Assembly (NCBI GenBank): GCA_020724465.1
Contig: DYGX01000008.1
Coordinates: 1 to 64,000, forward strand
Length of the DNA stretch: 64,000 nucleotides
Direction: 5' to 3'
DNA from: Thermoflexus sp.
GTDB lineage: Bacteria; Chloroflexota; Anaerolineae; Aggregatilineales; Aggregatilineaceae
A program made the position numbers and the translations under genes. How positions within the stretch are numbered: the first letter of the stretch is position 1; each line of letters opens with the position of its first letter. Under the pieces are notes generated by a model. That model saw only the letters and a program-made list of their open reading frames with translations, was not told the DNA's origin and did not search any database. Of this stretch, positions 4,854-12,069 are shown piece after piece.

Positions 4854-6404
4854 TCACGAACTGTCCCGCGATCCGTAACGCTCGATCAGGGCCTTCTTGT
4901 CGATTTTGCCTGCGCCGGTTTTCGGCAGCGCATCCACAAAAACAACCGACTTGGGCACCTTGTAATGCGCCAGATGCTCGCGCAGGAACGCGATCAGCCC
5001 GGCCTCGTCGAGCGGATGGCCCGGCTCGCGCACCACGATGGCGCGCCCCACCTCGCCCCACAGCGCGTCCGGCACGCCGATCAGCGCCGCTTCTTTGATC
5101 GCGGGGTGGCGGTACATCACGCTTTCCACTTCGGCGGGGTACACGTTCTCGCCGCCGGAGATGATCATATCCTTCAGCCGGCCCACAATCGTATAGTAGC
5201 CCTCTTCGTCGCGCACGGCGAGATCGCCGGTATACAGCCACCCATCGCGGATCGCCTGGGCGGTAGCTTCCGGGTTGTTCCAGTAGCCGGGTGTGACATG
5301 CGGCCCGCGAATCAGCAGCTCGCCCGGCTCGCCGGGATCGCACTCGGAGCCATCGGGCCGGACGACGCGCACGTCGACGTGCATCAGCGGGAAGCCGACC
5401 GCGCCCGGCTTGCGACGCACGTCCGCCTGCGGCAGCCAGAAGGTGTTGGGACCGGCCTCGGTCAGCCCGTAGCCGGTCTTGAAATCCACGCCTTTTTCCC
5501 AGAAGCGCTCGAAGACGGGCATCGGGCACGGCGCTCCCCCGTTGATCACCAGCTTGAGGCGCGAGAAATCCGCCTCGGCCCAGCGCGGGTGCTGCTGCAA
5601 GACGATCCACATCGTCGGCACGCCGAAGAACAGCGTCACCTCGCCGCTCTGCACCAGATCGAAGACCTGATCGGCGTCGAAACCGGCGCACAGGATGCTC
5701 GTCCCGCCGCAGTGAACGAGCGGCAGAGTGAAGACGTTCAGCCCGCCGGTGTGGAATAGCGGCGCGTTGAGGATCGCCACGTCGTTGAAGTCAAGCTGCC
5801 AGCTCATGACGGTGTTGACGCTGTTCCACGTCATGTTGCCGTGCGAGAGGATCGCGCCTTTGGGCAGGCCGGTCGTGCCGCCGGTGTAGCAGATCACCCA
5901 GGGCGAGTCCCAGTCCAGTTCGGGGCGCGGCGCGGTCAGCGTGTCCGGATAGGCGCTGCGTTCGGAGAAGGCGCGGTCGGTGTCGTCCGCGCGCTCGCCC
6001 AGCGCGACGAAATGGCGCACGCCTGGCACCCGATCGCGCAGCCGGTTGACCGGCTCCACGAACTCGCCGGAGTACATCAGCACAACCGGCGCGGCGTCGC
6101 GCAGCAGCCCTTCCAGCTCGCCAACCGCCAGCCGCCAGTTGAGGTTTTGCAGCACCGCGCCGATCTTGCCGCACGCCATCCACACGTCGAGATAGTCCAT
6201 GCTGTTGGTGGCATAGACCGCGACGCGATCGCCCGCCTCGACGCCCAGGGCGCGCAGATAGTTGGCGGTCTGGTTCGCCTGCGCGTTCCAGGCGGCGTAG
6301 GTCACGTCGCGCCCGGTGATCGTGTCGCGGATCGCGATCTTGTCCGGCGAGAGCTGCGCGCGGCGCTGCAAAAAGTCTGTGATGTAAATCGATTTCTGCT
6401 TCAT
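4854..6404 (-). CDS. AMP-dependent acyl-CoA synthetase/ligase (ligase 2)
   Basis: A 516-residue ANL-superfamily ligase, paralogous to ligase 1. The P-loop is TGGTTGLPKG, the hinge region VGRLKDMIISGGENVYP, and the C-terminal lysine is in KTGAGKIDKKAL. I chose the ATG giving MKQKSIYITDFL because it aligns with the start of ligase 1 (MYIGDTLGRR). An earlier in-frame ATG at 6479, one nucleotide after the SDR stop, would add 25 residues without family character but could be used by coupling. Two different ligases in one operon suggest two different acid substrates or a starter/extender pair. Substrate unknown. Confidence 0.86.
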   Translation of the reverse strand: MKQKSIYITDFLQRRAQLSPDKIAIRDTITGRDVTYAAWNAQANQTANYLRALGVEAGDRVAVYATNSMDYLDVWMACGKIGAVLQNLNWRLAVGELEGLLRDAAPVVLMYSGEFVEPVNRLRDRVPGVRHFVALGERADDTDRAFSERSAYPDTLTAPRPELDWDSPWVICYTGGTTGLPKGAILSHGNMTWNSVNTVMSWQLDFNDVAILNAPLFHTGGLNVFTLPLVHCGGTSILCAGFDADQVFDLVQSGEVTLFFGVPTMWIVLQQHPRWAEADFSRLKLVINGGAPCPMPVFERFWEKGVDFKTGYGLTEAGPNTFWLPQADVRRKPGAVGFPLMHVDVRVVRPDGSECDPGEPGELLIRGPHVTPGYWNNPEATAQAIRDGWLYTGDLAVRDEEGYYTIVGRLKDMIISGGENVYPAEVESVMYRHPAIKEAALIGVPDALWGEVGRAIVVREPGHPLDEAGLIAFLREHLAHYKVPKSVVFVDALPKTGAGKIDKKALIERYGSRDSS

Positions 6405-6480
6405 CACCCGCACAACGGCACACTCATAGTGGCGAAACAGGGGCAGACGGGCCGGCGCCACCTGCCCCTCTACTTTCATA

Positions 6481-7227
6481 TTACAGGACCAGCCCGCCGT
6501 CTACGCTGAGCACCACGCCGTTGACAAACGACGCCTCATCCGACGCCAGGAACAGATAGGCACTGGCGACGTCTTCCGGCGTGCCCAGGCGGCGCACCGG
6601 GGTGCGCTCGATGAAGGTTTCGAGCACTTTTTCCGGCACAGTCTTGAGCATATCGGTGGCGATGAAGCCGGGCGCGACGGCGTTCGCGGTGATGCCCTTC
6701 GGCCCCAGCTCGCGCGCCCAGACGCGCGTCATGCCGATCACGGCTGCTTTGGCCGCCACGTAGTTCGTCTGCCCGAAGTTGCCGTACAGCCCGACAATCG
6801 ACGAGGTGCTGATGATCCGCCCGTAACCGCGCTCGATCATCGGCCCGGCGACCGCCTGCGTCAGGTTGAAGACGCCCTTCAGGTTGACGTCGATCACGCG
6901 GTCGAAGTCTTCCTCGGTCAGCTTCACCAGCCGGGCATCGCGGGTGATCCCGGCGTTGTTGCCCAGGATGTCGATCTGCCCGTAGGCAGCCAGCACGCGC
7001 TCGACCAGCGCGGCGATCTGGTCGCGCCGGGTGACGTCGCACGGCACGGCGAGCGCCTCGCCCCCGGCGGCGGCGATCTCCCCGGCGACGGCGTCCGCCG
7101 CCGCCTCGGCCACGTCCACCACCACGGCCTTCGCGCCCTCCGCGGCAAAGCGCAGCGCGATCGCGCGCCCGATGCCCTGGCCTGCCCCGGTGATCACAGC
7201 CACACGGTTTTCCAGTCGCTTGCTCAT
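6481..7227 (-). CDS. SDR-family oxidoreductase, FabG-like 3-oxoacyl reductase
   Basis: A 248-residue classical short-chain dehydrogenase. It has the nucleotide-binding TGAGQGIG (14-21), NNAG, and the full catalytic set with Ser in STSSIVG and Tyr-Lys in YVAAK. The C-terminus (GVVLSVDGG) is typical of FabG. FabG-like enzymes reduce beta-ketoacyl thioesters with NADPH. Here it could reduce the product of the adjacent FabH-like enzymes, or supply 3-hydroxyacyl-CoA to the PHA synthase at 9332-10414. It lies 46 nt downstream of the second FabH-like gene in one transcript. Family firm; thioester carrier (CoA or ACP) unknown, and no ACP gene is present in the cluster. Confidence 0.88.
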   Translation of the reverse strand: MSKRLENRVAVITGAGQGIGRAIALRFAAEGAKAVVVDVAEAAADAVAGEIAAAGGEALAVPCDVTRRDQIAALVERVLAAYGQIDILGNNAGITRDARLVKLTEEDFDRVIDVNLKGVFNLTQAVAGPMIERGYGRIISTSSIVGLYGNFGQTNYVAAKAAVIGMTRVWARELGPKGITANAVAPGFIATDMLKTVPEKVLETFIERTPVRRLGTPEDVASAYLFLASDEASFVNGVVLSVDGGLVL

Positions 7228-7273: not shown

Positions 7274-8296
7274 TCAGCCCCAGCGGATCGCGCTGGCGCT
7301 CCAGGTGTAGCCCGTCCCGGCGCCCGCCAGCACGATCAGATCGCCCGGCTTGATCTTGCCCTGCCGCAGCCCCAGCGACAGAGCCAGCGCCTGATCGACG
7401 CTCTGGATATGCCCGTAATCTTCCAGATAGACGGATTGCTCGGGCGTCAGGCCGACCGCGCTCAGAATCTCCAGGTAAAACGAGCGCTTCATGTGAGTGA
7501 TGCCCAGGAAGCGCAGGTCTTCCAGCCGGTAGCCGCTCTCCTCGACTGCCTCGCGGATAACCTCGACGAAGCGGCTCAGCGACACCTCGCCCAGGCGCTC
7601 GGCCATATACTCGGCGTTGTGCACGTCCAGCCGCCCGTGCAGCGTGCCCATCTCGCCCGGCAGCAGCGCGACGCCCTCGGCAGCCGGCGTCATGACGACC
7701 GTGTCGGCCAGCGAGCCATCCGTCCGCACCGCCGATTCGAGCACGATGTTGTGCGGCTGCCCGCGCCGGAAGATCAGCGCGCCCGCCCCCGCGCCGAAGT
7801 TGAACATGAAGCGCGTGCGCATGTTGCTGAAGTCGATCAGGTCGTTCTCGCGGCTGGCACTGACCAGCAGCACGTTCTCCAGCCGCCGGTCAAGGCGCAT
7901 CATGTTGCGCGCCGCCTGGAACGCAATGGGCGCCCCGGCACACAGCGCGTACATCTCGAAGGCATAGGCGTTGGTCGCGCCGATCAGGTGCTGAATCTTG
8001 GACGCCGCCGACCAGACGATGTGATCCTTGTATTCGCTGCCGTGGTAGAGCACGAGGTCGAGGTCCGCCGCCGACAACCCGGCATCCGCCAGAGCGCGCT
8101 CGGCGGCGCGGGCGGCCATCGCCGTGATCGTGTCTTCCGGTCCGGCGACATGCACCTTGCGGATGCCCATCTTCTCCAGCACGACGAACTCCGGCAGGCC
8201 GCTGCGCGCGGCGATCTCCTGGCCGGTGAGCACCCGCTCAGGGAAGTAGAGGCCGAGGCCGGCGATGCCAACAGGGGGAAGCGCGGTTGATGCCAT
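7274..8296 (-). CDS. FabH-like (KAS III) condensing enzyme with Cys-His pair
   Basis: A 340-residue thiolase-fold protein, first gene of the biosynthetic unit. The nucleophile Cys119 is in YALCAGAP. The PHQAN-equivalent reads ITHMKRS, so a histidine (His268) is kept. The GNTSAAS-equivalent reads YGHIQSVD, so the usual Asn is His296. A Cys-His pair without Asn is known from PqsC, which works with the FabH-like partner PqsB. The present pairing with the residue-poor copy at 3049-4047 is reminiscent of that arrangement. A direct-repeat operator and -10-like box lie about 50 nt upstream. Product unknown. Confidence 0.82.
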   Translation of the reverse strand: MASTALPPVGIAGLGLYFPERVLTGQEIAARSGLPEFVVLEKMGIRKVHVAGPEDTITAMAARAAERALADAGLSAADLDLVLYHGSEYKDHIVWSAASKIQHLIGATNAYAFEMYALCAGAPIAFQAARNMMRLDRRLENVLLVSASRENDLIDFSNMRTRFMFNFGAGAGALIFRRGQPHNIVLESAVRTDGSLADTVVMTPAAEGVALLPGEMGTLHGRLDVHNAEYMAERLGEVSLSRFVEVIREAVEESGYRLEDLRFLGITHMKRSFYLEILSAVGLTPEQSVYLEDYGHIQSVDQALALSLGLRQGKIKPGDLIVLAGAGTGYTWSASAIRWG

Positions 8297-8344: not shown

Positions 8345-8379
8345 AGCCTAGCGCCCGCCAGTTACGGGCGAGTTACGGG
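8345..8379 (-). promoter_or_regulatory. putative SARP operator: 11-bp-spaced direct repeat and -10-like box
   Basis: On the minus strand two identical copies of CCCGTAACT occur at 8379-8371 and 8368-8360, exactly 11 bp apart. Nine bases after the second heptamer CGTAACT comes TAGGCT (8350-8345), a weak -10. The layout matches the one at 11219-11251, and the heptamers of both sites fit YGYAACY. The element lies upstream of the FabH-like gene that opens the biosynthetic unit. Confidence 0.5.
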
Positions 8380-8426
8380 GAGCGAGAGACGGACTGGAGC
8401 GGTGAAGAACGAGAGGGGAACGACGC

Positions 8427-9236
8427 TCAAAGTCCCAGCGCCACGCCGAGCGCGGTCAGCAGCACCGTCAGCGCGCCCATCCCAAGCTCGAGAAAGCCGA
8501 TCGTCTGCGGGCGGGCGGGCCGCCGCCAGGGGGAGACGCCATAGGCGGCGCGCACAAACAGAGACGCGAGCGCAACGGTGGCCAACCACGGCACCCATCC
8601 GAGCGCGGCCAGCGGCGCGATCGCCACCAGCGCCAGGGCGTTCAGCGCCAGCACGGCGCCGCGCGCGGCGGGCTTGCCTTTTTCCAGGCGCAGGCGCTCG
8701 CGCACGTACACAATCGAGGGAACATCCCGCGCGGCCAGCACCGCCCACAACCCCAGCGCGGTCTGATAGGCCGCGCCACCCGCCAGCGCGATCGTCGCGA
8801 CCAGCGCCGCCAGGGTCAGCGCCCCGGCCAGCTCGCGCGCCAGCTCGCGGCCCCGGTTGCTCAGCAGGCTGATCACCTGCACCAGAGCCAGCGGCGCCGC
8901 CAGCAGCAGCGGGATCAGCGGCGCCAGTCCGCCGAGCGCCAGCGCCGGAAGCAGCCCGGCGAGCGCCAGGGCCAGATAGGCGAGCAAGACACGCTCGGCA
9001 GCCACCGTCCGGGCGTAGCGCCGCCCCCGCCGCCGGTCGGTGTAGGCCAGCTTGAGCGGGTGCTGCATCAGAAACGCGCCGAGCGCCGCCACCCCCCAGA
9101 AGAACCCGGCCCACGACGGCGCAACCAGCAGCCCCAGCGCCACCGGCTCCAGCAGAAAACCCCACCCACCGTGCTCCGGTGGCAGCGCGACAGCTTTCCA
9201 GCGAACCTGTGCAGGCGGTCCCAGCGTGAGGTCCAT
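8427..9236 (-). CDS. YwiC-like integral membrane protein
   Basis: A 269-residue, very hydrophobic protein with about eight to nine membrane segments. Near the N-terminus it carries PPEHGGWGFLLEP, the hallmark of the YwiC-like family, followed later by ARDVPSIVYVRERL, a polar segment typical of the family's central region. YwiC-like proteins have no established function; they resemble UbiA-type prenyltransferases in outline, but I see no clear aspartate-rich motif. An alternative ATG at 9260 would add eight residues; neither start has a convincing ribosome site. The gene follows phaC by 95 nt in the same direction. Confidence 0.7.
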   Translation of the reverse strand: MDLTLGPPAQVRWKAVALPPEHGGWGFLLEPVALGLLVAPSWAGFFWGVAALGAFLMQHPLKLAYTDRRRGRRYARTVAAERVLLAYLALALAGLLPALALGGLAPLIPLLLAAPLALVQVISLLSNRGRELARELAGALTLAALVATIALAGGAAYQTALGLWAVLAARDVPSIVYVRERLRLEKGKPAARGAVLALNALALVAIAPLAALGWVPWLATVALASLFVRAAYGVSPWRRPARPQTIGFLELGMGALTVLLTALGVALGL

Positions 9237-9331
9237 AGCGTTTTCGGGATCGGGCAACATAACAATGCAGGGAAGTATATCGAATCGCGGGCGCAGCGTC
9301 TTGATCAGGATCAATTCACCGCTGTTCGTCG

Positions 9332-10414
9332 CTACGCGTCGCTGCTTCCCGCTCGACTTGCCAGCCACGCGCCGAGCCGGGGCCAGAGCTGCGTGTGAGC
9401 GTCCGAGCCGACCACCATCCCGATATGCCCGCTCTCCAGCACGATCAACTGCCTGTCGGCGCTGGAAACGAGATCGTGCAACACGGCGACCGACTCCCAC
9501 GGCGCGATGTGGTCCCGCCGCGCGGCGATGGTCAGCGTCGGCGCGGTGATACGGGCCAGATCGATCCGCTCGCCGCCGATGGTGAAGATCCCATCTATCA
9601 AGGCGTTGCGCTGGTAGAGGTCTTTGATGTACTTGCGAAAGGCCTCGCCGGGGAACGGGGTTGGGTCGTTGGTCCAGAGCTGCATCGCGGCAAAGCGCCG
9701 CACGAAGGCGTCGTCGTCGCGCCGCTCCCAGTAGTCCAGCGCGCGCAGCACTTCGTCGGTGGGGCGCACCATATGAAACGTGAAGTTGAGCAGTTCGGCG
9801 GGGATGTTGCCCAGCGTATCAACCAGCAGATCGACATCCAGATATTCGGGCCGGGTCCAGACGCTGTAGATGCCGTCGTCGTGGTAGTTGATCGGCCCGG
9901 CCAGGTTCACCAGCGCGGCCACATCCGCCGGGCGCAGCACGCTGTAGACGGCGGCCATCATGCCCCCCATGCAGTACCCCAGCAGCGCGACGGCCCGCGC
10001 CCCGCTCTCGCGCTGCACCGCCTGGACGCAGCGCCCCAGCAGGCCGGTGATGTACTCGTCGAGGGTGCGGGCGCGGTCGGCGTCCGTCGCCACACCCCAA
10101 TCGAGCATGTAGACATCCAGCCCGCGCCGCAGCAGCGAGCCGACCAGCGACCGCTCGGGCGTCAGGTCCATGATGTAATAGTGGTTGATCAGCGAGGGGA
10201 CGCACAGCACCGGGACCGGATGCCGGGTTTCGGCTTGCGGGGCGTAATGCAGCAGGCGCAGACGGCCCTCGGTGTAGATCACGCGCGCGGGCGTCTGGCC
10301 GACCAGCGTGCGACCGTAGGCGCGGATCGCGTCTTTGGCGGCGGTGTAGCTGCGCCACACCTGAGCCATGCCCGCGCCCCACAGCCCGGCCCAGCGTTCC
10401 AACAGGTCATCCAT
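9332..10414 (-). CDS. phaC: class III poly(R)-hydroxyalkanoate synthase, PhaC subunit
   Basis: A 360-residue alpha/beta-hydrolase-fold polymerase that links 3-hydroxyacyl-CoA into polyhydroxyalkanoate. The lipase-box variant GYCMGG puts the nucleophile at Cys148, as in PHA synthases. The acid is in ARRDHIAPW and the base in ESGHIGMV. The length of about 360 and the lack of a long N-terminal domain are typical of class III enzymes, which need a PhaE partner. The start ATG overlaps the stop of the PhaE-like gene by 8 nt (ATGGATGA), so the two are translationally coupled. Confidence 0.9.
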   Translation of the reverse strand: MDDLLERWAGLWGAGMAQVWRSYTAAKDAIRAYGRTLVGQTPARVIYTEGRLRLLHYAPQAETRHPVPVLCVPSLINHYYIMDLTPERSLVGSLLRRGLDVYMLDWGVATDADRARTLDEYITGLLGRCVQAVQRESGARAVALLGYCMGGMMAAVYSVLRPADVAALVNLAGPINYHDDGIYSVWTRPEYLDVDLLVDTLGNIPAELLNFTFHMVRPTDEVLRALDYWERRDDDAFVRRFAAMQLWTNDPTPFPGEAFRKYIKDLYQRNALIDGIFTIGGERIDLARITAPTLTIAARRDHIAPWESVAVLHDLVSSADRQLIVLESGHIGMVVGSDAHTQLWPRLGAWLASRAGSSDA

Positions 10415-10709
10415 CGCCCACTTGCCGCTCCAGCCGGTCCAGGCGGGCGGCCAGCGCGTCCAGCCGGGCCTCAAGCTGCGCCAGCGCCGCCAGCTCGCGG
10501 GCGCGCTCCTGCCGGGCGGCGGCCAGGTTCCACGCGGCGGCCTGCAACGTGGCGCGGATGTGTTGCTGCGAGCGCAGCGACGCGCTGAGCTGCCGCCCGA
10601 CCCGCGTCAGGAACTCCGGCGAGCGCGAGACGTCGTTCCAGTAGGCCGCGACCTCGCGCTCCCACGCTTCGACGCTCTGGCGCAGCGCCCCCGCCAGCGG
10701 ATCATCCAC
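10407..10709 (-). CDS. small PhaE-like/phasin-like coiled-coil protein
   Basis: A 100-residue protein that is mostly amphipathic helix, with heptad-like Leu/Ala spacing in its last 50 residues (LAALAQLEARLDALAARL). It matches the C-terminal part expected of a PHA-synthase partner and is coupled to phaC. I chose a GTG start at 10709, giving MDDPLAGAL. It overlaps the upstream stop by 8 nt (GTGGATGA) in the same way phaC does, and has GAGGAG about 10 nt before it; an ATG at 10727 is the alternative. It is far shorter than classical PhaE (over 300 residues). Role inferred from position and shape. Confidence 0.65.
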   Translation of the reverse strand: MDDPLAGALRQSVEAWEREVAAYWNDVSRSPEFLTRVGRQLSASLRSQQHIRATLQAAAWNLAAARQERARELAALAQLEARLDALAARLDRLERQVGDG

Positions 10710-11181
10710 CGCGCAGCCGCTCCTCAAGATCGTCCACCTTGGCGCTCAGCACCTCCACCTGGGCCGTCAGGCGCTCGATGATGCTGATCAACTGCGCCTG
10801 CTGGTCCGGGCTGGTCTGTTGGGCCGACGCCGACCAACGCGCCAGGCTCTCGGCCATTGTCTCGCCCATGCGCCGCCCCTGCTCCAACATCAGCTCCATC
10901 GATTGCAGCATGATGTCGGTGTAGCGGGGAGCCATCTCGCCCCACAGCCGGGCCGTCTCGGCGAAGATCCGTTCCGGCGAGAGCGGTTCGTCCCCGGCGA
11001 ACGCCTGGCGAATCGTCTCGTTGACGTGTTCTTGCATGAAGGCCAGCGCATCGCTGAAGCGCGCGAAGTCGGCGGTGTGATCGCTCTGCACATGTTTGAT
11101 CACGCCGCGCCAGCGCGCGGGCTGCCCGTCGCTCTCCTCGCGGATGAAACGTAAGACAAACGACACCACGTCCTGGTTCAT
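10702..11181 (-). CDS. helical PHA-locus protein (phasin/PhaE-like)
   Basis: A 159-residue protein opening with MNQDVVSFVLRFIREE, then a conserved-looking segment ARWRGVIKHVQ, and ending in a predicted coiled coil (IIERLTAQVEVLSAKVDDLEE). The arrangement suggests a granule-associated or synthase-associated helical protein. The chosen ATG removes a 20-residue extension with no family character that would overlap the regulatory region. It is the first gene of the PHA unit and overlaps the next gene by 8 nt. I do not recognise a named family with certainty. Confidence 0.65.
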   Translation of the reverse strand: MNQDVVSFVLRFIREESDGQPARWRGVIKHVQSDHTADFARFSDALAFMQEHVNETIRQAFAGDEPLSPERIFAETARLWGEMAPRYTDIMLQSMELMLEQGRRMGETMAESLARWSASAQQTSPDQQAQLISIIERLTAQVEVLSAKVDDLEERLRGG

Positions 11182-11218
11182 GCTGCGCTCCGACACGTTC
11201 GACCTGCTTTCAACTCCT

Positions 11219-11251
11219 CTTATATCCCGCTCTGGTTGCACGCTGGTTGCA
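11219..11251 (-). promoter_or_regulatory. putative SARP operator: 11-bp-spaced direct repeat and -10 box
   Basis: On the minus strand TGCAACCAG occurs at 11251-11243 and again at 11240-11232, an exact 11-bp period. Nine bases after the second heptamer TGCAACC is TATAAG (11224-11219), a good -10. SARP regulators are known to bind heptamer direct repeats with 11- or 22-bp period close to the -10. The site lies just after the SARP gene and before the PHA unit. Confidence 0.6.
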
Positions 11252-11259
11252 GCGCTCCG

Positions 11260-12069
11260 CTAGCGCGGCAGCAGCGCCTCGGGCGGATCGCCCCGCGCGA
11301 TCGCCCGGTATAGCGCCGTCGTCGCGGACATCGGCTCCAGATCCAGCCCGTCGCGCAGCGTCTGGCGGCACTGCTCGTAGACGCGCAGCGCCAGCGGGCG
11401 ATTGCCGCGCAGCGCATGGCTGATCATCATGATCCGGTACGCTTCTTCCCAGTACCGGTCGAGCGACAGGACGGACTGGCAAAGCTGGATCGCCTCTTGC
11501 AGGCCGCCGCGCGGCACCAGCAGCGTGGCGAGCCGCATCGCGCCGGAGAGGTACAGCGTGTGCAGGCGCTCGCGCTCCAGGCTGGACCAGTCCTCATAGA
11601 GCGCGTCGGGCAGATAGTCGCCCTGGTAGAGATCGAGCGCGGCGCGGTACACCTCGATCGCGGCGTCCGGGTCGTCGGCTTCCAGCCGGGCGGCGCGCTT
11701 CAGCCCGTCGCGGAACTCGGCTGCGTCGATCACGATGTCGGCGTCCGGGTCCAGCCCGTAGGCCAGGCCGGAGCGGCTGATGTAGGTCGACAGCGAGCGC
11801 GCCGAACGATCTGGCTGGAGCGCGTCGTTGAGCGCGTTGAGCGCCACCTTAAAGTCACGGTCGGCGCGCTTCTCGTCCAGCGACGGCCACAGCTCGGCCA
11901 CGATCCGCTCTTTGGGCATCACCTGATGGCTGTCGTTCAGGCGGATGGTGATCAGGAACTGAAACAGGCGTTGGGCTTTCTCGCGCTTCCAGACGACCGG
12001 GGGCAGCGGTTCCCCGTCGATCCAGACGCGGAACAGACCGAGCGTCTGCACGCGCAGCGAGTCGCTCAT
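11260..12069 (-). CDS. SARP-family transcriptional activator (winged helix plus BTAD)
   Basis: A 269-residue regulator with the length of a small Streptomyces Antibiotic Regulatory Protein. Residues 1-100 are an OmpR-like winged helix (LRVQTLGLFRVWIDG at the start, then WKREKAQRLFQFL and VAELWPSLDE). Residues about 105-250 are a bacterial transcriptional activation domain of TPR-like helices (IVIDAAEFRDGLKR, DLYQGDYLPDALYEDW). No ATPase domain follows. SARPs usually activate neighbouring biosynthetic genes. The two repeat-type operators at 11219-11251 and 8345-8379 make the PHA and FabH/ligase units its likely targets. The ATG at 12069 gives the family N-terminus. Confidence 0.85.
   Translation of the reverse strand: MSDSLRVQTLGLFRVWIDGEPLPPVVWKREKAQRLFQFLITIRLNDSHQVMPKERIVAELWPSLDEKRADRDFKVALNALNDALQPDRSARSLSTYISRSGLAYGLDPDADIVIDAAEFRDGLKRAARLEADDPDAAIEVYRAALDLYQGDYLPDALYEDWSSLERERLHTLYLSGAMRLATLLVPRGGLQEAIQLCQSVLSLDRYWEEAYRIMMISHALRGNRPLALRVYEQCRQTLRDGLDLEPMSATTALYRAIARGDPPEALLPR

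Follow-up and report, generated by a model that had tools for sequence, protein, structure and literature searches.

A candidate polyhydroxyalkanoate/acyl-CoA regulon of a stand-alone SARP-type regulator in an Anaerolineae family

We describe a predicted regulon in a 64,000-nt stretch of a Thermoflexus sp. genome (contig DYGX01000008.1, Chloroflexota; hereafter the window), part of an assembly of 4.42 Mb referred to as G000. The window encodes a 269-aa stand-alone regulator of the Streptomyces antibiotic regulatory protein (SARP) type, and our analysis argues with good confidence that this protein activates a three-operon polyhydroxyalkanoate (PHA)/acyl-CoA regulon through sites A and B, in the window, and a third promoter, site C, located elsewhere in the genome. 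We favour a single regulon on two grounds: the sites, the regulator and the targets are present or absent together, and the module recurs beside distant relatives of the regulator. Binding by the 269-aa protein, activation and the existence of a single regulator are what we infer from the sites, their conservation, geometry and rarity, their co-occurrence with the regulator and the fold of the protein. In the proposed mechanism, two SARP protomers would bind head-to-tail on YGYAACY heptamers placed 11 bp apart, in promoters where the heptamers precede the -10 by 9 bp and no -35 is recognisable, and would help the housekeeping RNA polymerase to start at these promoters, in the way that AfsR acts on its 22-bp box. 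Site A would drive the genes of a 159-aa phasin/PhaE-like protein, a 101-aa protein and PhaC; site B those of a FabH-like synthase, a FabG/PhaB-like reductase and an acyl-CoA ligase; and the distant site C those of a HIT protein and an acetyl-CoA acetyltransferase, so that the three units together would provide monomer supply and polymerisation for PHA.

The heptamer pairs reported below the SARP gene by the first-pass annotation are both real; the coordinates given for site B were right, while site A had been drawn 2 bp too far and ends at 11234, not 11232. Its observation that the second heptamer stands 9 bp before a -10-like hexamer (TATAAG and TAGGCT) is exact at both sites, and each site indeed heads a gene block. 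Site A falls after the stop codon of SARP and ahead of the ATG (11181) that opens the 159-aa gene; the -10 hexamer of site B ends 48 bp ahead of the FabH ATG (8296). Heptameric repeats with an 11-bp period near a -10, as expected for the SARP family, are thus found at these two predicted operators and also at site C. The window holds two YGYAACY-N4-YGYAACY pairs, each an exact repeat, against a mean of 0.013 in 300 first-order Markov windows, none of which held two. The genome-wide pattern scan that had been suggested as a check recovered only four bare pairs in 4.42 Mb (two with the backwards-read pattern as control), so random occurrences are not many; these are site A, site B, the third conserved promoter (site C) and one other, apparently within coding sequence and without a -10 at the right spacing. 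Chance was rejected as the origin of the repeats on the basis of the Markov windows, the reversed-pattern control and the comparison with flank conservation given below. The same geometry bears on the idea that the repeats are -35-type elements of an alternative, extracytoplasmic-function (ECF)-like sigma factor, given that their AAC core is like ECF -35 motifs and that an AAC-containing motif does precede a -10-like element without TTGACA. We regard this as very improbable: the copies lie 9 bp (second) and 20 bp (first) from the -10, neither being a usual -35 spacing, they come as two at an exact 11-bp period, the hexamers suit the housekeeping TAnnnT, and the linked gene is a SARP.

Conservation was followed in 18 genomes of the family, including G000, whose members are related, so that the counts are not independent. 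Site A was found between SARP and the 159-aa gene in G002, G003, G004, G006, G009, G013 and G016 as well as in the window genome. G015 was considered as a case of site A loss and left out of the count because its locus is broken or badly assembled: the SARP frame reads into downstream sequence and PhaC is split over two frames. Ten family genomes (nine beyond G000) have this FabH, each with site B ahead of it and with all 14 heptamer bases identical; the site is kept in five relatives where FabH sits far from SARP or on a different contig. The 9-bp spacing to the -10 is preserved in every orthologous site. Pairwise identity of the heptamers reaches 0.85 for site A, 1.00 for site B and 0.98 for site C, versus 0.62-0.87 for the -10 and 0.26-0.33, about random, for the 40-bp flanks. 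The orthologous loci, proposed earlier as a decisive comparison, retain the repeats (A in seven and B in nine further family genomes) within flanks that are about random. FabH orthologs of other families have no such repeats upstream. From this sequence conservation, sites A and B are judged to be promoter modules under strong selection.

Site C was exposed by a composite search, in which the heptamer pair was combined with the -10 and the reversed pattern served as control; over the family genomes it gave 22 matches versus 2 for the control. Site C reads TGTAACC-N4-CGTAACT-N9-TATsGT, and a HIT-protein gene followed by an acetyl-CoA acetyltransferase (thiolase) gene lies downstream. The first-pass annotation had proposed a regulon of two units; A and B stand as members, but that view was incomplete, a third member (HIT plus thiolase) being located outside the window. 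A site profile built from 26 sites was also run over the family; it was trained on A, B and C, so their own scores are no evidence and were excluded as such. In every well-assembled genome with a SARP, the three sites head the profile's ranking, as a rule well separated from the next match (in this genome, E values of 2e-5, 8e-5 and 0.015 for the three sites and 0.885 for the next), and in G009 site A falls near noise level. Little else comparable turns up in these genomes, and it is this scarcity that counts as evidence. As further members, the pairs at G003:C19 and G000:C27 were rejected, as they look intragenic, and so were weaker profile matches, which are close to chance. A second, TACAAT-type promoter is seen in the loci L136-L158: in most family genomes it falls between site C and the HIT start, and several other families also have it ahead of the HIT gene. 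Since this promoter stands nearer the HIT gene, site C probably adds regulated expression to a basal one.

The target genes and the regulator share their distribution. PhaC was found in 10 of the 18 family genomes, namely nine with a SARP ortholog and G001, and was not found in the remaining eight; gaps aside, the FabH and 159-aa genes are distributed likewise. G001 was examined as a counter-example with sites and without SARP and was discarded: SARP is missing there because the contig ends, inside PhaC and before SARP would start. G014, which is 100% complete and belongs to the genus of the SARP-positive G006, G015 and G016, is without SARP, PhaC and FabH orthologs. Its site C is broken (CGTAAACT) by a one-base insertion in the second heptamer (L138, upstream of G014:C13:27553-28053), possibly a relic of operator decay after loss of the regulator. 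Site C is absent from G008, G010, G011 and nine genomes of other families.

The identification of the 269-aa protein as a SARP was borne out by its fold and its BTAD domain (Pfam PF03704, 82.3 bits, E 6e-23). The AlphaFold2 model (predicted local distance difference test score of 91.7) matches the AfsR SARP in its promoter complexes 8hvr/8k60 with a template modelling (TM) score of 0.79-0.80, and EmbR is also matched over the whole chain; these full-length matches of the model support an N-terminal OmpR-type winged helix. AfsR is the only PDB sequence match. As in small SARPs, there is no ATPase or TPR part, and the open frame of 289 codons is bounded by stops. The gene adjoins a putative target operon, site A following it directly in eight family genomes. 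In the eight family loci read for this purpose, no pair was found upstream of the SARP gene, and autoregulation was discarded on that ground. The earlier emphasis on a location outside the actinobacteria is correct in that the host belongs to Chloroflexota, yet it is unremarkable: because this genome has eight strong BTAD genes and six non-actinobacterial control genomes also have BTAD matches, such a SARP is not notable by itself.

Relatives with 43-52% identity to the 269-aa protein were found in eight named genomes: two Thermoflexales, three other Chloroflexota bins, an Ardenticatenaceae bin, Paenibacillus apiarius and P. profundus. In all of them the SARP part is the C-terminus of a protein of roughly 1,100-1,300 aa (one cut by a contig end), and the two large relatives that were scanned have ATPase and/or TPR matches. 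Because relatives outside the family are mostly such fusions of about 1,100 aa, the window protein is read as the stand-alone counterpart of a larger regulator. The repeat pair, with its 9-bp gap, occurs just past the regulator gene in each of the eight; in L198 the pair has one mismatch and lies within a three-heptamer array. The composite pattern gave 12 matches in seven such genomes (1-3 per genome) versus none for the control. In L198 an extra site stands ahead of a FabH with 57% identity to that of the window; others stand ahead of thiolase in both Paenibacillus (L202, L203; the L202 thiolase is 47% identical to that of G000) and, in a Thermoflexales bin, ahead of a transporter-type substrate-binding protein named by sequence reading. 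In a wider phylum sample of 29 SARP relatives, 400 bp downstream were inspected and 12 had a pair, with scores of 15-17; shuffled sequence reached 15 in 5 of 1,680 trials and 16 never. On the protein tree, the proteins with a site fall in clusters (8 changes versus a shuffled mean of about 19), and the helix motif FKVxLNAL is common to site-bearing proteins and close site-less relatives and is not in more distant BTAD proteins. A general rule that every BTAD gene has such a pair downstream was rejected; several of the loci read end inside the BTAD gene, and only those containing its stop codon count for this purpose.

Some features of these distant loci deserve mention on their own. In L196 (5815), L218, L219, L222 and L225-L228 the first heptamer contains the TAA stop of the large regulator gene (TG-TAA-CY), so that the operator and the 3' end of that gene overlap. 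L220 (G071:C121:70353-71957) has tandem SARP-type genes, an open frame of 1,078 aa and then one of 294 aa, possibly through duplication or splitting of the SARP part. In P. apiarius and P. profundus a third repeat/-10 module precedes a 451-aa open frame (L246, L257), which by sequence reading, not family search, resembles a secreted hydrolase of the lipase type, a hint that this regulon may serve in the use of lipids or polyester.

Several observations weigh against a single SARP-driven PHA regulon. The winged helix (Trans_reg_C) is unrecognised by Pfam in the 269-aa protein and weak in L198. In the wider phylum sample, 17 of the 29 relatives have no pair in the 400 bp downstream; their targets may lie elsewhere. 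G005 (77% complete) has an intact site C and no SARP, PhaC or FabH ortholog was found in it. The heptamer versions differ, TGCAACC at site A versus CGTAACT at site B, so two proteins are possible; because of this difference the 269-aa protein is put forward as the presumptive binding protein, and site C, which mixes the types, softens the contrast. PhaC scores 321.6 bits against TIGR01836, under the cut-off of 365.3, and for this reason we call it no more than class III-like. Finally, PHA as the product, suggested by the PhaC-like synthase with its GYCMG box, the thiolase and the reductase, depends on gene names.

Part of this is what would be expected if sites A, B and C belonged to another winged-helix activator, of the OmpR/PhoB type or another BTAD protein, and the SARP adjacency were coincidental. 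Pho boxes of OmpR/PhoB-type response regulators are also 7-4-7, so the layout is not exclusive to SARPs; the eight BTAD genes of this genome offer candidates, the A and B versions are unlike and G005 retains site C. We consider this unlikely, since in many lineages, belonging to two phyla, the pair adjoins this SARP or its relatives, the other BTAD genes of this genome have no bare pair nearby, assessable paralogs in relatives lack a downstream pair, site decay accompanies SARP absence in G014, and FKVxLNAL is kept in the site-bearing group and absent from paralogs. The difference between the heptamers could also mean two regulons, with SARP acting at site A, a related second regulator at B and C, and co-conservation reflecting shared physiology, as B and the second half of C invariably read CGTAACT and TGCAACC is typical of A. 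Against this, C also carries TGTAACC, which is between the A and B types; the sites directly past SARP use TGCAACC, TGTAACC, TGTAACT or CGCAACC by lineage; in L198, L202 and L203 the sites linked to FabH or thiolase are of the type seen beside the SARP of that genome; and no second co-occurring regulator was found, although no systematic search was made. We rate two regulons as marginally less likely still than a foreign activator, and a single regulon of the 269-aa SARP is retained.

Regarding its origin, the 269-aa protein would share ancestry with the C-terminal SARP part of the ATPase/TPR regulators of about 1,100 aa, which would control the FabH/ligase/thiolase module in other Chloroflexota and Paenibacillus; the stand-alone form is probably the derived one. 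We lean, with some reserve, towards an old cross-phylum SARP lineage (Chloroflexota, Bacillota), separate from the antibiotic SARPs, that governs an acyl-CoA/FabH/thiolase module through YGYAACY-N4-YGYAACY-N9-TAnnnT and that in one Anaerolineae family lost its ATPase sensor and was rewired to PHA synthesis.

The genes of the locus are collected in Table 1. Unit A comprises the 159-aa, 101-aa, PhaC-like and 262-aa genes, and unit B the FabH-like, FabG/PhaB-like and ligase genes. PhaC has a lipase-like box with a cysteine nucleophile, GYCMG at residue 146. The 159-aa, 101-aa and 262-aa proteins have no Pfam or NCBIfam match. As candidates for a PhaE partner, two proteins precede PhaC, neither of them assigned by NCBIfam. 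The first 55 aa of the 159-aa protein show 36-49% identity to small open frames past large SARPs in L196, L197, L198 and L201. In several lineages this domain of about 55 aa (SFVLRF...GVIRHVQ...F...) is encoded after the site beside SARP, either by itself or with a longer tail fused to it. The FabG/PhaB-like reductase scores 251, under the cut-off, with TIGR01829 (acetoacetyl-CoA reductase).

Table 1. Regulator, predicted promoter elements and genes of the locus (window positions, except for site C)
Feature	Coordinates	Strand	Basis or remarks
Stand-alone SARP-type regulator, 269 aa	11260..12069	-	N-terminal winged-helix part + BTAD
Site A, predicted operator TGCAACC-AGCG-TGCAACC	11234..11251	-	exact 7-bp repeat, 11-bp period
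Site A parts	TGCAACC 11251-11245, AGCG 11244-11241, TGCAACC 11240-11234, 9-nt spacer 11233-11225	-	
-10-like hexamer TATAAG of site A	11219..11224	-	9 bp past second heptamer
159-aa protein, conserved N-terminal domain of ~55 aa + putative phasin/PhaE-like tail	10702..11181	-	
101-aa protein, probable PHA-synthase partner or phasin	10407..10709	-	suggested by position
PhaC-like PHA synthase, class III-like, box GYCMG	9332..10414	-	TIGR01836, PhaC_N
262-aa protein after PhaC	8452..9237	-	membership of unit A uncertain
Site B, predicted operator CGTAACT-CGCC-CGTAACT	8360..8377	-	exact 7-bp repeat, 11-bp period
Site B parts	CGTAACT 8377-8371, CGCC 8370-8367, CGTAACT 8366-8360, 9-nt spacer 8359-8351	-	
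-10-like hexamer TAGGCT of site B	8345..8350	-	9 bp past second heptamer
FabH-like 3-oxoacyl synthase (PRK06840 type)	7274..8296	-	NF005308 420.9 bits, cut-off 315
FabG/PhaB-like short-chain reductase	6481..7227	-	NF004198 305.9 bits, above cut-off 296
Acyl-CoA ligase (AMP-binding)	4854..6479	-	NF004837 497 bits, cut-off 476
Site C, outside the window	G000:C4:165226-165194	-	composite pattern

To our knowledge, SARPs have been studied almost solely as Streptomyces antibiotic switches. A SARP with heptamer operators is of a known kind, and BTAD proteins outside Actinobacteria are common; measured against the literature searched, the new elements are the operator, the PHA/acyl-CoA regulon of three operons, the finding that it is conserved in two phyla, and a stand-alone relative of larger regulators with a C-terminal SARP part. 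In that literature, which mostly leaves out subscription journals, we found no earlier report of SARPs with PHA, Chloroflexota or Paenibacillus, nor an earlier candidate regulator of polyester storage in Anaerolineae. Here, genomes from two further phyla let us read regulator, operator and targets as a set, and the latter resemble storage and acyl-CoA metabolism. The outcome is a predicted regulon and a candidate polyester-storage regulator in Anaerolineae, as well as a case for examining SARP promoter geometry beyond Actinobacteria. Having both a stand-alone and an ATPase-fused form within one lineage also allows a natural comparison of sensor control over a SARP.

Among known systems, AfsR of Streptomyces coelicolor at the afsS promoter is the closest, with a winged helix + BTAD fold alike over the whole chain (TM 0.80) and, as here, a pair of 11-bp direct repeats immediately ahead of the -10 and a poor or absent -35. 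The two repeats make up a 22-bp box that has its centre at -29.5 and its upstream repeat at -40 to -30 and is engaged by a SARP dimer together with sigma region 4 (PMC10936776). As differences, the predicted targets here are acyl-CoA/PHA genes, and the SARP part of AfsR is N-terminal in an ATPase/TPR protein, whereas the window protein is the SARP part alone and its large relatives carry it C-terminally; in the alignment, the base-contacting T88 and R92 of AfsR correspond to V and A. The small SARPs ActII-ORF4, RedD and DnrI are similar in size (about 270-300 aa), consist of a DNA-binding domain and BTAD only, are encoded beside their target operon and use heptamers with 4-bp spacers, but they are actinobacterial, act in secondary metabolism and recognise other heptamers, in contrast to a Chloroflexota protein of probable storage metabolism. 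In several SARPs, heptamers with 4-bp spacers have the repeat 8 bp ahead of the -10 (PMC7040171), close to the 9-bp gap found here. The SARP-LAL proteins PimR, SanG and FilR join a SARP to large ATP-binding modules, as do the large relatives described above, but in reversed domain order, with SARP N-terminal, and their heptamer is CGGCAAG (PMC5930380). PhaR of Ralstonia eutropha likewise regulates PHA genes, although it is a repressor that binds PHA granules and a different type of regulator from a SARP (PMC11332829).

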